Source of the DNA: Calditrichia bacterium
Lineage (GTDB): Bacteria > Calditrichota > Calditrichia > Calditrichales > Calditrichaceae
Assembly: GCA_026983775.1 (NCBI GenBank)
Contig: JALSTK010000109.1
Location: 1 to 64,000 of the forward strand
DNA length: 64,000 nucleotides
Direction: 5' to 3'
A program made the position numbers and the translations under genes. The notes beneath the pieces are model-generated. The model had not been told where the DNA came from and made no database searches. It saw nothing but the letters and a program-made list of their open reading frames with translations. Numbering within the stretch: position 1 is the first letter of the stretch; each line of letters starts with the position of its first letter. Of the stretch, positions 5,603 to 11,541 are shown piece after piece.

Positions 5603-8575
5603 TTAATGTACCACCATAATTTTAATAATCTTTCGTTCCGTTCTCGTCGCCGATTTTGCTTCGACCCGACACAGATAGATACCGGAAGCTTTGCCGCTAA
5701 CATTCCAGGCAATCTCATTGGCCATCTGTCCCTTACCCGGGCCGTCAAATTCATCCACCGCTTCTCCGCTGGTATCAAAAATTTTGATATGCACTGCGGC
5801 ATCTTCGGTGAGATAGTAGCGAATAGTCGTAAAATTTCCCTGATTCGGATTAGGGTAGTTATAGACCCTTTTGAAAGGCATGAGTTCGTTGGATACCGGC
5901 TGATAAACCAGCCCCTGTTCCAGGAGCATATTGTTCGATGCGTCGATACGTTCCTGCTTCCATAGATACGAAGAAGGGTCGCTTTTCGGAGACAATTGCC
6001 AGCCCAAAACCGTACCCTTCCGGGTGACAGCCAGCAGTTCCATGGCCGGATCGGCATCCAATTGGACGATCATCGGCGTAGAAGTCAAAGAGAAACCGGC
6101 CGAAAGCGGGAAGCCGCCGACACTTTGGCCCAGGATATTAAAAGCCATCAGTTGACCGTCGGAGGTGACACTCAGAAAATCCAAAGTCCCGTCTCCGTCC
6201 AGATCACCGATCAGAGGGGTCCCGACCAAGGATTGACCCGGTTCCAGGTAAGTATCTATGGGAAACCCGGATACCAGATTACCCTGCTGGTTAAGTGCCA
6301 CGATTTGAGAAGGTGTATTAAAAACCAAATCGTAGGTTCCCAGACCTTCGATGTCGGCCACCGCAAACTGGCCGGTCACTTCGAACTGAGTCGGCCATTC
6401 CTGCCACTGCGAACCGGGAGCATCGGTTTTAAAAGAAAAATGCCCGCTCCCGGCCGAATAAATAAAAGTGGCCATGGTTTGATCGTTAAGCCGAACCCGG
6501 GCGGCGTAAGTGGTCTGCCGGGGGAAATCTACTACGCTTCCCTTACTGTTAATCAATAATGGAAGCTCAGGTCTTTCCCGTTTTTGACGGGAGACAATCT
6601 GTCCCAGACGGTCTACGGCATATACCGAATCGTTTAAAGCGGAAACATAGACCCATTGCTTTCGGCTGATCAGTTCTGCAGAAAGCCCTTGCGAGAAGGA
6701 GATCGGGCTGAACAGAGGAGCTAACAGAGAATCCGCCGTCATGGCGGTCAGATCAAAACCGTATAGCGTATCCCCGGAGAGCACGAACAGGGCGTCGTAT
6801 CGTTGATCTTGATTGCTATCCATCAAAGCCAGAGGAAGTTCTTTCGCGGATATACCGATCCGGGCAATATCCCGAACGGGATAACCGAATAGAGACTTTC
6901 CTTCAGGGCCGACCGCATAAATACCTCCGTTTTGCGAAACCATGAAAGCGAAGGTTCCTTGTTGGCCTTCAACGGCACCGGCAATACTGGTACCCGGAAA
7001 TGAATCAACCGCAGATAGATGAACCGGAAAACCGGTCTCGTTCATATCCTGCAGGTAATCGAAAGACATGGATAGCCCTTTGTTGCTGGAGAAGTTTTTT
7101 AAAACCACATGGGAGAAAGCGTGGTTGCGGTTCGCCCGACTGGCCGGGATGGAACGACTCGAAAATTCGTTGGTATAGCGCTCGAATCCTTCCAGGTAGG
7201 TGGGACGGTTACGGAACCAGAAATCAGCCAGCCATCCTAAATCCTTTTGATAGCCCGCTTCCAGTAAGGTATAGGTTTGACCGATATCCTGAGCACCGTC
7301 CGCTTCTTCAATTTTGACCGCCATGTTCCGGGGATCATCATTAATGGCCTGTTCCCCTCCTTTTTCCCGAATGATCCGTTCATCCACATGCCAGATCAAA
7401 ATACCCGCCCCGGGCAAGCCCCAATCATAATTGGGTACGGAAAGCAATACACCGCTCTCACCAATCTCGATTTTGTCTCCATAATACCGCTTAAGAATCT
7501 CGAGATAGGATGGAGGCTCATTGCGTTCACTGTAAAATACATCATACAGAGAATCTATTTTTACCCGGGCATTTCCGCGAAATTCGAGTAAGTAATATTC
7601 ACTGTCATTAATCGGTACCTGAACCATGGTAGGCAAACCGGAAGGGTTTTCCGAACCCAATCGGGCCAGCTTCACCTGATTTTGGGGGTGTTGCAGAACA
7701 AGCGTTTCACCCCAGCCCAACAGCTTTCGCGAGAAGGCGCCCGGCGGGGATGGAACCAGGCCGTTCATGTTCAACAGTCCGGCATCCATCAGACCGAAGC
7801 GGCCTACGCCGGTCCGTTGGGTAGACGGACTGAACAGGTCATACAGGCCAAGATAGGAGCCGATATTGGAAACGAACATTCCGGTCAGGGCGATCTGAAT
7901 GCCCGGCCTGTTTTCCGTTTCAGGCAAAAGAATACCGGAGCGAACCCGAAAGGTGCCGTTATTGACCCGAACACCGTCAAATTGATTGCCGATAGATTTT
8001 TGAATAAAATCCCGGGTCAGATAAAGCGAGGGGATATCCTGGGGAGTGACATCATAGCCCAAATTGACATCTTTGCCTATGCCGGCATGAAAAATAACCA
8101 CCAGGTCATATTTGCTGAAATCGATGTGCGCATCCGATTGATCGGCCGCTTGCACGGCATCGATAAATAGTTTACTCAGACCCTGATTGATCGCCTGATT
8201 GGTTGTATTGGGATTGTAATAGCCCATATCATGGGGAAGTTCGAAGGATTCGTTTTCCGTAGCCGGATATACATCACCTTTTATGGCCACATGCCCGTTG
8301 GAAACCTTCGCAAAATAATTGGCAGCCGCCCGAACCTGATCTTCAAAATAGAGACGATTATGGGGAGCAGGGTCAATCGCATAGGGATCGGTGGTAGTCG
8401 TATCGATCATGAATCTGCCGTCGCCGCTGGTTAATCCGTTATGATCCGGAAGAAAGGAAACACGCAAAGCACAAATTCGGATGGAATCCGTTGCGCCCTG
8501 GGCCTGAACCGAAAAGTACACGATAAAATTCAGTAATACACTGAACATAAATAGAGTAAGATATTTTTTCATCAT
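5603..8575 (-). CDS. T9SS cargo with an M6-like protease domain lacking the catalytic HEXXH
   Basis: This 990-residue protein has a signal peptide (about 1-26). The N-terminal half follows the M6 (immune inhibitor A-like) plan: RVSFLPDHN-LTSGDGRF near 38-55, then GLYDLF, GRFGLMDAGLLN and LLGWGE at about 243-290. At the place where active M6 enzymes have HEFGH-LGLPDLY, this protein has S236-N237-I-G-S240, then YLGLYDLF. All three catalytic or zinc-binding residues are therefore replaced. Residues from about 520 to 880 hold FG-GAP/VCBS-like repeats (IGDLDGDGTLDFLSV). The last 90 or so residues are a T9SS type A sorting domain (YNYPNPNQGNFTTI, then a C-terminal beta-sandwich). Export and surface attachment by T9SS are inferred from that domain. 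It stands between a terminator (8624-8649) and the active metallopeptidase gene. Confidence 0.8.
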   Translation of the reverse strand: MMKKYLTLFMFSVLLNFIVYFSVQAQGATDSIRICALRVSFLPDHNGLTSGDGRFMIDTTTTDPYAIDPAPHNRLYFEDQVRAAANYFAKVSNGHVAIKGDVYPATENESFELPHDMGYYNPNTTNQAINQGLSKLFIDAVQAADQSDAHIDFSKYDLVVIFHAGIGKDVNLGYDVTPQDIPSLYLTRDFIQKSIGNQFDGVRVNNGTFRVRSGILLPETENRPGIQIALTGMFVSNIGSYLGLYDLFSPSTQRTGVGRFGLMDAGLLNMNGLVPSPPGAFSRKLLGWGETLVLQHPQNQVKLARLGSENPSGLPTMVQVPINDSEYYLLEFRGNARVKIDSLYDVFYSERNEPPSYLEILKRYYGDKIEIGESGVLLSVPNYDWGLPGAGILIWHVDERIIREKGGEQAINDDPRNMAVKIEEADGAQDIGQTYTLLEAGYQKDLGWLADFWFRNRPTYLEGFERYTNEFSSRSIPASRANRNHAFSHVVLKNFSSNKGLSMSFDYLQDMNETGFPVHLSAVDSFPGTSIAGAVEGQQGTFAFMVSQNGGIYAVGPEGKSLFGYPVRDIARIGISAKELPLALMDSNQDQRYDALFVLSGDTLYGFDLTAMTADSLLAPLFSPISFSQGLSAELISRKQWVYVSALNDSVYAVDRLGQIVSRQKRERPELPLLINSKGSVVDFPRQTTYAARVRLNDQTMATFIYSAGSGHFSFKTDAPGSQWQEWPTQFEVTGQFAVADIEGLGTYDLVFNTPSQIVALNQQGNLVSGFPIDTYLEPGQSLVGTPLIGDLDGDGTLDFLSVTSDGQLMAFNILGQSVGGFPLSAGFSLTSTPMIVQLDADPAMELLAVTRKGTVLGWQLSPKSDPSSYLWKQERIDASNNMLLEQGLVYQPVSNELMPFKRVYNYPNPNQGNFTTIRYYLTEDAAVHIKIFDTSGEAVDEFDGPGKGQMANEIAWNVSGKASGIYLCRVEAKSATRTERKIIKIMVVH

Positions 8576-8658: not shown

Positions 8659-9750
8659 TTAGAATTTAACAGCCAGCGAAAAACGCATCGTGTCTGATAG
8701 CGGATGATCCTGGGCTGCGGAAATGTAGCTGAAATCAATAGCAAAAATATTATAACCGATACCGGCTCCAAAGGTTGCGAATTTTCTTCCGCCGAATTTT
8801 TCATTTTCATAAAAATATCCGGCACGCAGGGCGATAAGCGTTCCGTAGCGGTATTCCAAACCAACGGAGTGGGTAAAACGTTTCATACGATCCTTGATAG
8901 GTCCATTTACCCAGCTTGAGAAAAACACGGCTTTAAAAACATTATCCGAAGTTCCGTCTCTGTGTTTAACCACCAGCAGGCGATTTATATCGTACACTAC
9001 GGTAATGCTGTTGAAACCGTCATCATAGGCTTTATAGGCCAGTCCGGCCCGCAGATTGGTAGGCATGGGATCGGCCTGTTTCCGGTCGATATACGTTACT
9101 TTCGGCCCGAAATTGGACAAATTGAATCCCAAATTTAAACGGTTATCGAAAATCTTATAGGCCGGAGTCCACAGCATGCCCAGGTCCACCGCAAAGGTAG
9201 TGGCCCGTCCTTGCCGGTCTTCCGAGCCCACGCTCACATTGGTCAGATTACTCTGCACAATCTTGGCATTAATGCCTACCCCCAGATTTTCCTCTAATTT
9301 GGTAGCATAACTTAAGGTCAACGCATATTCGAAGGAATCAAATGTGCCCAATTCATTCCCGGTCTCATCGGTCCACACATTTTTACCCAAATTAAGAAAG
9401 GTTATACTGGCTCCGACCATGCCTACATCATTGATATACATACGACCGGCCATATAATCATAGAACAAATCGCTAAAATTGAATTGAGGCAGCCATTTGG
9501 CATGCATAAATGAAATTTCGCGCGGTTTATCCACTTCCGGATCGTCATATTGAAAAGCCAAACCGGCCGGATTCCAGAAGATGGCGGTTGCATCATTAAC
9601 GAGAGCAGCGCCGGATTCCCCCATACCTCCGTTCCGGGCACCGGGTGTAATCAACAGGAACGGTACAGCCGCTTCCCCCTGGGCAAATAACTGCTGCATG
9701 GGGATCAGCATCAGAATTGCCATCGATAAAAACATCATAAATCGTTTCAT
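8659..9750 (-). CDS. PorV/PorQ-family outer-membrane protein (second PorV paralogue)
   Basis: The start is set at the ATG at 9750 because a strong ribosome binding site (GGAGG, 9759-9763) lies 8 bases upstream. This gives 363 residues. A signal peptide (about 1-23, ending LFAQ) is followed by the family signature at the mature N-terminus: PGARNGGMGESGAALVNDATAIFWNPAGLA. The rest is a series of amphipathic beta-strands ending in FSLAVKF with a C-terminal Phe, as expected for an outer-membrane barrel of the FadL-like PorV/PorQ (UPF0164) group. In T9SS, PorV carries cargo to the sortase PorU. A second PorV-like gene (33317-34330) sits directly beside the sortase, so this copy may serve specific cargo such as the M6-like protein encoded next. 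The leader is unusual (see 9751-9942). Confidence 0.85.
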   Translation of the reverse strand: MKRFMMFLSMAILMLIPMQQLFAQGEAAVPFLLITPGARNGGMGESGAALVNDATAIFWNPAGLAFQYDDPEVDKPREISFMHAKWLPQFNFSDLFYDYMAGRMYINDVGMVGASITFLNLGKNVWTDETGNELGTFDSFEYALTLSYATKLEENLGVGINAKIVQSNLTNVSVGSEDRQGRATTFAVDLGMLWTPAYKIFDNRLNLGFNLSNFGPKVTYIDRKQADPMPTNLRAGLAYKAYDDGFNSITVVYDINRLLVVKHRDGTSDNVFKAVFFSSWVNGPIKDRMKRFTHSVGLEYRYGTLIALRAGYFYENEKFGGRKFATFGAGIGYNIFAIDFSYISAAQDHPLSDTMRFSLAVKF

Positions 9751-9942
9751 AAAATTTTCCTCCAAAAAAAAACCGATTAAATGGATCAACTTCCTTTAAT
9801 CCAATTAACCGGTCCAATTATCACAAAAGCCAGTTCATTTGTTAAAGGCAGACTAATCCACTAAAAAATCTGGACTAATTATGTTCACCAAAAACCTTTA
9901 ACAAACGACTATAGGCGTTTCCTCAGATAATCAATATAAAGT
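9751..9942 (-). promoter_or_regulatory. Long structured leader of the second porV gene, possible attenuator
   Basis: From the predicted start near 9942 to the ATG the leader is about 190 bases. It contains a perfect 11-bp stem (9895-9905 with 9838-9848) enclosing a 9-bp inner stem (9871-9879 with 9852-9860, two G-U pairs, 10-base loop). A terminator-like hairpin follows at 9773-9812, whose nine-base T run directly touches the ribosome binding site. A segment of the inner stem (9856-9865) could instead pair with the 3' arm of the terminator (9777-9786, 9 of 10 with one G-U). That would allow mutually exclusive folds. This reading is by eye, and I do not recognise a known riboswitch class. Confidence 0.45.
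9764..9812 (-). terminator. Intrinsic terminator hairpin abutting the porV ribosome binding site
   Basis: On the minus strand, 9799-9812 pairs with 9773-9786 (14 positions, one mismatch and one G-U) around a 12-base loop. Nine T residues (9764-9772) follow. The hairpin could end transcripts of the accA-thioesterase-Trm112 operon. However, a good promoter (9949-9977) lies upstream of it, so transcripts from there to porV must pass through it. Confidence 0.65.
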
Positions 9943-9948
9943 GAGCAA

Positions 9949-9977
9949 AATATAAGCGCTAAGTACAATTTTGTCAA
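9949..9977 (-). promoter_or_regulatory. Strong sigma-70-like promoter upstream of the second porV gene
   Basis: A perfect -35 TTGACA (9972-9977) and a -10 TATATT (9949-9954) are separated by 17 bases. The promoter starts 20 bases after the Trm112 stop codon, and the predicted start is near 9942. Confidence 0.7.
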
Positions 9978-9996: not shown

Positions 9997-10161
9997 TCAG
10001 AATGATTCCGCTTCTTCTAAAAGCATAATCGGTATATCGTCTTCAATCTTGAATTTTAATCGACAATTGGGACAGATTAAAAGGTTATGCGCTTCATCAT
10101 ATTCCAAATCCCCTTTGCATTTGGGACAGGCTAATATCTCTAAAAGTTGTTTATCAAGCAT
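9997..10161 (-). CDS. Trm112-family small zinc-binding protein (YcaR/UPF0434-like)
   Basis: A 54-residue frame from the ATG at 10159-10161 to a TGA at 9997-9999. It has two CxxC pairs, C12-P-K-C15 and C30-P-N-C33. The surrounding pattern is LLEILACPKCKGDL, then LICPNCRLKFKIEDDIPIMLLEEA, which is the Trm112/UPF0434 family signature. In other bacteria such proteins are small zinc proteins, some of which act as partners that activate methyltransferases; the bacterial role is poorly defined. The gene follows the YbgC-type thioesterase by 13 bases and is probably the last gene of the long operon that starts at 19146. The identity is clear from the motif, but the partner is unknown. Confidence 0.9.
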   Translation of the reverse strand: MLDKQLLEILACPKCKGDLEYDEAHNLLICPNCRLKFKIEDDIPIMLLEEAESF

Positions 10162-10174
10162 TGTATACCTTCAT

Positions 10175-10585
10175 TTAAAAATAGGGTTCAAGAGCCTGCA
10201 TAAAACTACGCGGCGGCCGCGTCGCCTTATAATCGGCGGAGATAAAACCGTGAGAAGAGTATCCGCTGCAGATAATTTTTTCTTCTTCGTTTCTCACCTC
10301 ATATTCTATCCGGAATTTGGCTCCGGGCTTTTTAGGCAAACGGGCTAAAATTTTTAATCGATCGTCGAAACGGGCCGGACGGAGATAGGTAACGTGAACT
10401 TCCAGTACAGGGAGCAAATATCCCTTTTGTTCCAGATCGGCATAAGAGATTCCTACCGATCGCATCAGCTCGATCCGGGCCAACTCAAACCAGATAATAT
10501 AATTCGAATGATGAGCATATTTCATCTGGTCCGCTTCCGCATAGCGCACCCGAACCAGCGATGTGTGTTCGATCATTCTTTCCAT
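10175..10585 (-). CDS. YbgC/FadM-type acyl-CoA thioesterase (4HBT hotdog fold)
   Basis: A protein of about 136 residues with the hotdog-thioesterase pattern [31 protein letters not shown] near the N-terminus; the Asp of AEAD is the likely catalytic residue. It continues with the [13 protein letters not shown] strand and a C-terminal SSHGFISAD strand. The family hydrolyses acyl-CoA or related thioesters, and YbgC proteins are often linked to envelope lipid metabolism. The start is ambiguous: the ATG at 10585 gives the longest frame, while the ATG at 10576 overlaps the accA stop as ATGA, a classic coupled start. Position directly after accA fits a role in acyl metabolism, but the substrate is unknown. 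Confidence 0.85.
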
Positions 10586-11541
10586 GAACCCATTTTACTA
10601 TACTTATCCAGACGTTGTTCCAATAATTCCCGGCGGGGAATTTGCATCAATTCCCGTAAATGGCGCAGGATGGCTTCCTTGACTATTTGCGCGGCCTGTT
10701 CGGTATTGTGGTGGGCACCGCCTTCCGGTTCTTTAATAATTTCATCGACAATTCCCAGTTCCAGTAAATCCGGAGCCGACACCTTCATGGCTTCGGCCGC
10801 TTCGGGAGCTTTTGCCGCGTCTCTCCAAAGAATAGCGGCACAACCCTCCGGACTAATAACCGAATACCAGGAATTTTCCAGCATGAGGATACGATCGCCC
10901 ACACCGATGCCCAACGCACCGCCTGAGGCACCTTCACCGATAATCACATTAATCAGCGGGACCGGCATACGGGCCATGCGAAACAGGTTTCTGGCAATCG
11001 CCTCGGCCTGACCCCGTTCCTCGGCGCCGATTCCGGGATAAGCTCCGGGTGTATCGATTAACGTGATGATCGGTTTATCAAACTTTACGGCCAGATCCAT
11101 CACTCTTAAGGCCTTGCGATAACCTTCGGGATTAGGCATACCGAAATTACGGTACAAATTATCTTTAGTACCCCGTCCTTTTTGCTGACCGATGATAATA
11201 ACCGAAAATTCATCTAACTGAGCCAGCCCGGAAACGATCGCTCTATCATCGGCAAAATGACGGTCACCGTGCAGTTCTTCGAAATAGCTGCACATATGTC
11301 CGATGTAGTCCAGAGTATAGGGGCGCAGCGGATGACGGGCTAACTGGACCCGCTGCCAGCGGGTAAGATTGGAATAGATTTCTTTACGTAGCTGGCCCGC
11401 TTTTTTCTCCAACCGTTTTATATCATCATCGAGTTCGAGGCCGGATGAAAGGGCATACTCCCGCATTTCATGAATTTTTTCTTCCAGCTCGACAACCGGT
11501 CTTTCAAACTCGAGTACAAATTTCTGTGTTTTTAAGGCCAT
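10573..11541 (-). CDS. accA: Acetyl-CoA carboxylase carboxyltransferase subunit alpha
   Basis: A 322-residue protein of the normal AccA length. It has an N-terminal helical region ([14 protein letters not shown]). The crotonase-like carboxyltransferase core carries [18 protein letters not shown] and [20 protein letters not shown], followed by [13 protein letters not shown]. With AccD it transfers the carboxyl group from carboxybiotin to acetyl-CoA, making malonyl-CoA for fatty acid synthesis in the cytoplasm. The accD, accB and accC genes are not in the window. It is separated from the Dpm1-like gene upstream by only 6 bases and overlaps the thioesterase start, so it belongs to the long 19.1-10 kb operon. 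Confidence 0.97.

Follow-up and report, generated by a model that had tools for sequence, protein, structure and literature searches.

Regulation of the T9SS is known mainly from Bacteroidota, via protein regulators, and factors of the RfaH, UpxY or LoaP type act on the leaders of surface-polysaccharide and secretion operons. In Porphyromonas gingivalis the expression of T9SS components is controlled by PorXY-SigP, a two-component system and sigma factor (PMC7712824). The element described here, which lies before porV in a 64,000-nucleotide stretch of Calditrichota DNA (the window), would share this role with PorXY-SigP but is a leader RNA. Like riboswitches with intrinsic-terminator platforms, the leader combines a promoter, a closing helix, a shared switching strand and a terminator before the start codon; unlike them, it has no match in Rfam, and its core is a long helix and a 5' box with a variable apical part. 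The extra conservation of one of its strands fits a capturing factor that frees the partner strand, as in protein-dependent attenuators, from which it differs in its targets, the T9SS attachment genes, and in that the capturing protein is hypothetical. It also precedes surface-polysaccharide and export operons, as do the leaders controlled by RfaH, UpxY or LoaP. We propose that the leader very probably attenuates porV transcription by switching between two states, and that it belongs to a multi-phylum family of leader RNAs not previously described; as a mechanism it would be of a known kind, while as an RNA family with a T9SS target set it appears to be new.

All elements of the leader lie on the minus strand of the window. 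A sigma-70-type promoter (TTGACA, 17 bases, TATATT; 9949..9977, 11 of 12 matches) precedes a leader RNA of ~190 nt (9751..9942), whose start site is inferred to lie ~7 nt past the -10 hexamer, and a promoter of like type is found upstream of the leader in most relatives. A conserved 5' box, GAGG..GCCTATAG (9909..9924; consensus GGAGnnnGCCUAUA), is followed by the 5' strand of helix P1, CGTTTGTTAAAGG (9895..9907), which pairs with the 3' strand, CCTTTAACAAATG (9836..9848), to give 13 bp including one G-U (9907-9895 with 9848-9836). P1 encloses a lineage-specific inner stem (9852..9879; 9879-9871 with 9860-9852), the apical part of which differs between lineages, with a loop varying in both length and sequence. 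The intrinsic terminator (9764..9813) consists of a stem at 9813-9772 and a T-run to 9764, directly followed by the Shine-Dalgarno sequence GGAGG of porV (9759..9763) and by the ATG start codon at 9750. A simple terminator pattern scan, used alone, did not list this hairpin, because its stem and loop fall outside the scan's rule. The leader has a folding energy of -57.0 kcal/mol, compared to -33.8 kcal/mol in 200 dinucleotide shuffles (z -6.3), and covariance model R1 matches the window at 9765-9928 with an E-value of 1.5e-18. A preliminary description of this DNA had reported the promoter, a leader of about 190 bases with a stem and an inner stem, and a terminator T-run ending where GGAGG begins, and we find each of these where it was placed.

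The same description called the downstream gene (8659..9750, minus strand; PF19572, 109.1 bits) a porV paralogue. This label is not upheld: the gene scores 261.9 bits with the NCBIfam PorV equivalog NF033710, above the cut-off of 250, and is thus PorV itself by that test. It is followed by a gene for an M6-like protease-related protein with a T9SS type A sorting domain (5603..8575, minus strand; TIGR04183 above cut-off), which scores 592.7 bits with NF052323, just under the cut-off of 600, and is a probable operon partner. The genes upstream of the leader encode AccA, a thioesterase and Trm112 (9997-11541).

Central to the proposed attenuator is a switching (antiterminator) strand (9842..9860), which has two possible pairing partners: its complements in P1 and the inner stem, or the terminator interior (9782..9799), to which it would bind in the putative ON state. 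Together, the two alternative pairings proposed earlier make up a single helix of 17 pairs (9860-9842 with 9799-9782), whose formation is incompatible with P1 as well as with the upper stem of the terminator. We compared such pairings across genomes in a swap test, in which duplexes were computed between each terminator interior (the upper part of the stem and the loop) and either its own upstream leader or those of others. Own pairing was the stronger among 25 genus representatives of Calditrichota (-16.4 vs -12.8 kcal/mol when swapped, sd 0.54, 0/20,000 permutations); the difference also held in f1 taken separately (p 0.0005) and in f3/f5/f6 (p 0.0012). Thirteen leaders of other phyla, partly picked by eye for layout, a choice to which the swap control is fair, gave -17.5 vs -13.1 kcal/mol (0/20,000), while 16 leaders of a fourth outside phylum, the phylum to which L092, L093 and L095 of the 13-leader set also belong, gave -21.5 vs -16.8 kcal/mol (0/20,000). 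For four leaders (L030, L036, L133 and L144) own pairing was no better than swapped. The position of the switching strand varies: in f1/f2 Calditrichota it is made up of the 3' strand of P1 plus the bases that precede it, in other clades of a segment after P1. As the switching helices differ in sequence between lineages, it is complementarity, not sequence, that is conserved. The leader therefore carries both hallmarks of an attenuator, an intrinsic terminator between promoter and start codon and, in silico, a mutually exclusive antiterminator pairing. When the two alternative structures were folded, P1 with the terminator came out as the more stable at all lengths tested; its advantage was 6.6 kcal/mol at position 9780, the decision point, and 20 kcal/mol in the full leader.

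Named relatives place the window's genome in Calditrichota. Our sample of this phylum comprises 40 genomes, 37 of which have a full PorV orthologue, the other three being without a complete PorV match. The leader lies directly upstream of porV in all 37 complete orthologues, with one copy per genome, and the R1 search likewise returns one real copy per Calditrichota genome, always before porV. From a MAFFT alignment of the 37 leaders (A1) as sole input, RNAalifold gives exactly P1 and the terminator, with two-sided changes at 11 pairs and 94.9% of alignment cells paired; the covariation score is 0.408, whereas shuffled alignments give 0.212 (0/500) and slid ones no more than 0.132. The stems expected in relatives are thus conserved, and both covary. 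Two-sided changes are found in 6 of the 9 pairs of the terminator lower stem, and one-sided changes in the P1 core are mostly G-U. A PorV-family paralogue in G002 (L043) is without such a leader. A second R1 match in G025 (L079) proved to be an ordinary terminator behind a peptidyl-prolyl isomerase gene, and model matches that coincide with other matches but lie on the other strand are the palindromic P1 read in reverse.

Comparison between genomes demonstrates, at the level of sequence, the helices, a terminator beside the start site, a complementarity that allows alternative pairing, and the association with particular genes, and a terminator/antiterminator switch is well supported as the class of mechanism. 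In the OFF state P1 would form first, extended in some lineages by an outer helix P0, and sequester the switching strand; the terminator hairpin would then close and transcription end just before the Shine-Dalgarno sequence. In the ON state P1 would remain unformed, and its 3' strand and adjacent bases would pair with the upper stem and loop of the terminator, keeping it open so that porV (or porU-porV) is made. Folding energies indicate OFF as the presumed default, and since it is preferred energetically at all lengths tested, release to ON would need an active trigger. The P1 5' strand carries 1.51 bits per position vs 1.02 for the 3' strand and is the more conserved in 11 of 12 pairs; with one-sided changes in the core being mostly G-U, it is probable that more than the pairing partner reads this strand. 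As its conservation goes beyond what base pairing would demand, we infer a trans-acting factor or ligand as the trigger, with the 5' box and this strand as its recognition site; release from OFF would occur when such a factor captures the strand.

Covariance models, the E-values of which are rough, detect the leader in at least five phyla beyond Calditrichota, where it almost always precedes either porV or an operon of porU and porV. R1 matches five genomes from three other phyla, each sampled by very few genomes; these copies precede porV followed by an M6-like protease gene (one), porU (two), a lipoprotein operon (one) and a polysaccharide operon (one). In the fourth outside phylum (82 genomes) R2 matches 27 genomes, and 19 of 20 inspected matches lie directly before porV. 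In genomes with a porU-porV operon, it is porU that the leader precedes: its layout there is readable by eye in L117, L118, L120, L121 and L122, and all three weak R2 matches in the set of such operons fall exactly before porU. Searching a 386-genome sample of the domain with R3, for which there are few genomes per phylum, adds G183, which lies outside the other listed phyla and has the leader just before porU; the true distribution is likely to be wider or patchier than this sample reveals. For G333 the PorU assignment is confirmed; for G094 and G183 it has support. Matches in G050 and G080 (E 0.03) were taken as false, neither being among the listed PorV-bearing genomes. Across phyla P1 retains a covariation score of 0.330 vs 0.200 shuffled (0/500), and G, C, U, A and U of the 5' box are nearly invariant in several phyla; in some lineages this box pairs with a 3' UAUAGGC segment to form P0. 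The covarying stems, the conserved complementarity in three independent sets of leaders and the linkage to porV and porU-porV across phyla support the earlier suggestion that an outer-membrane component of the T9SS is controlled by a switch or attenuator; the observation behind it is confirmed and understated the case.

Further copies extend the range of targets. In G474, G475, G476 and G097 a copy lies before an operon for a lipoprotein and a beta-propeller protein, which in G475 and G097 runs on into genes for PorV-family proteins (L158, L160). G433 carries one before genes for a nucleotide-sugar dehydrogenase and polysaccharide export, and G312 one ~250 nt before dTDP-sugar genes and genes for polysaccharide export and a chain-length determinant, possibly regulating them over that distance or functioning as an independent small RNA. 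PorU, PorV and PorZ of P. gingivalis are described as attaching secreted cargo to A-LPS (PMC5562754, PMC8545088); together with the targets seen here, this means that the target genes share one theme. The target set of PorV family, PorU sortase and some surface-polysaccharide operons suggests that the signal reports the cell-surface attachment of secreted proteins. A leader before porV or porU-porV in at least six phyla would constitute an RNA control layer for the T9SS and offer a sequence tag for finding the signal by which cells match secretion with surface anchoring. As side observations, the lipoprotein and beta-propeller operon has its own leader copy in L154, L155, L158 and L160 (another phylum and G097), the beta-propeller protein weakly resembles PorZ at its C-terminal end, and the G312 copy (L159, 3957-4119) is upstream of a surface-polysaccharide cluster.

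The alternative that survives best, which we regard as possible though on balance disfavoured, is a small-molecule riboswitch in the strict sense, with P1, the 5' box and the bulge that separates them as the aptamer and a ligand that would set the terminator by making P1 more or less stable. The logic of the expression platform is alike, conservation across phyla extends to the 5' box (GGAG..GCCUAUA) as well as the 5' strand of P1, and copies stand before different operons of one theme. The apical part, however, is unconserved, and the core is small and mostly helical, without a visible multi-helix pocket. A check for an aptamer domain shared by distant species found the P1 helix and 5' box kept across phyla, but no clear pocket. 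Nor is there a match to a known aptamer: Rfam 15 at gathering score gives no family for the window, in keeping with the earlier remark that no known riboswitch was recognised, or for 20 loci of other phyla, and up to E 5 the window leader has chance matches to unrelated families only. The titles and abstracts of open-access journal papers searched on the T9SS or PorV with riboswitches or antitermination, and on structured RNA in Caldithrix, contain no description of the leader, and a word search of two recent papers on new bacterial RNAs gives no mention of it. The leader is a candidate for a new class of regulatory RNA, and would add an orphan riboswitch-like class. A broader and rather doubtful idea is that of an ancient, widespread riboswitch or RNA sensor of cell-surface attachment, responding for example to an A-LPS-like anchor or a sugar-nucleotide precursor, which would set the PorU/PorV machinery of the T9SS and the matching surface polysaccharide in several phyla.

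Recognition of the leader by a specialised NusG paralogue (RfaH, UpxY or LoaP type) driving processive antitermination is improbable. Most Calditrichota checked do carry a second gene with a NusG domain, such as G000:C48:8240-8515 in the window's own genome. Among the genomes checked for NusG-domain genes, however, leader and paralogue did not occur together consistently: the single-contig genomes G029 and G097, as well as G312, have the leader yet one such gene, whereas G444, G455, G499 and G500 have two and no model match. Unlike in leaders controlled by these factors, the anatomy here is explained by a local terminator/antiterminator pair.

If the inverted repeat GTTTGTTAAAGG...CCTTTAACAAAC were instead an operator, two DNA half-sites bound by a transcription factor, its conservation in sequence would be accounted for, and operator half-sites can co-vary. 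This reading is very unlikely, as the arms are spaced by ~30 to >100 nt, too variable for a dimer in phase, the one-sided changes in the P1 core are mostly G-U, tolerated by RNA pairing but not necessarily by a DNA operator, and the complementarity to the terminator is left unexplained.

Hardly tenable is the simpler reading, already raised in the preliminary description, of an ordinary terminator of the upstream genes beside an unrelated promoter, with no switch. The hairpin and U-run do make a good intrinsic terminator, but the promoter separates this terminator from the upstream gene, P1, the terminator and the position next to the porV start are kept in 37/37 orthologues and in other phyla despite differing upstream genes, with the terminator staying beside the porV Shine-Dalgarno, and the complementarity of the switching strand exceeds that of swapped controls. 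Leader-peptide attenuation, in which a ribosome stalling on a short upstream frame would set the fold, is very improbable: some leaders contain short frames, but about half of the 37 have no start codon with Shine-Dalgarno and at least 8 codons, the others share no common position or peptide, and a search of all 37 found no conserved short reading frame.

Two observations lie beside the attenuator itself. In family f57 (G363, G090; L105, L106) porV has a leader of other sequence with the same strand-exchange logic, where GGCGTCC can pair with an upstream GACGCC or with GGACGC in the terminator. The gene order accA, thioesterase, Trm112, (leader) porV also partly recurs in other phyla, with accA and Trm112 upstream of porU in G333 (L120), accA, Trm112 and a thioesterase-like frame upstream of porU in G040 (L121), and Trm112 upstream of porV in G332 (L107).
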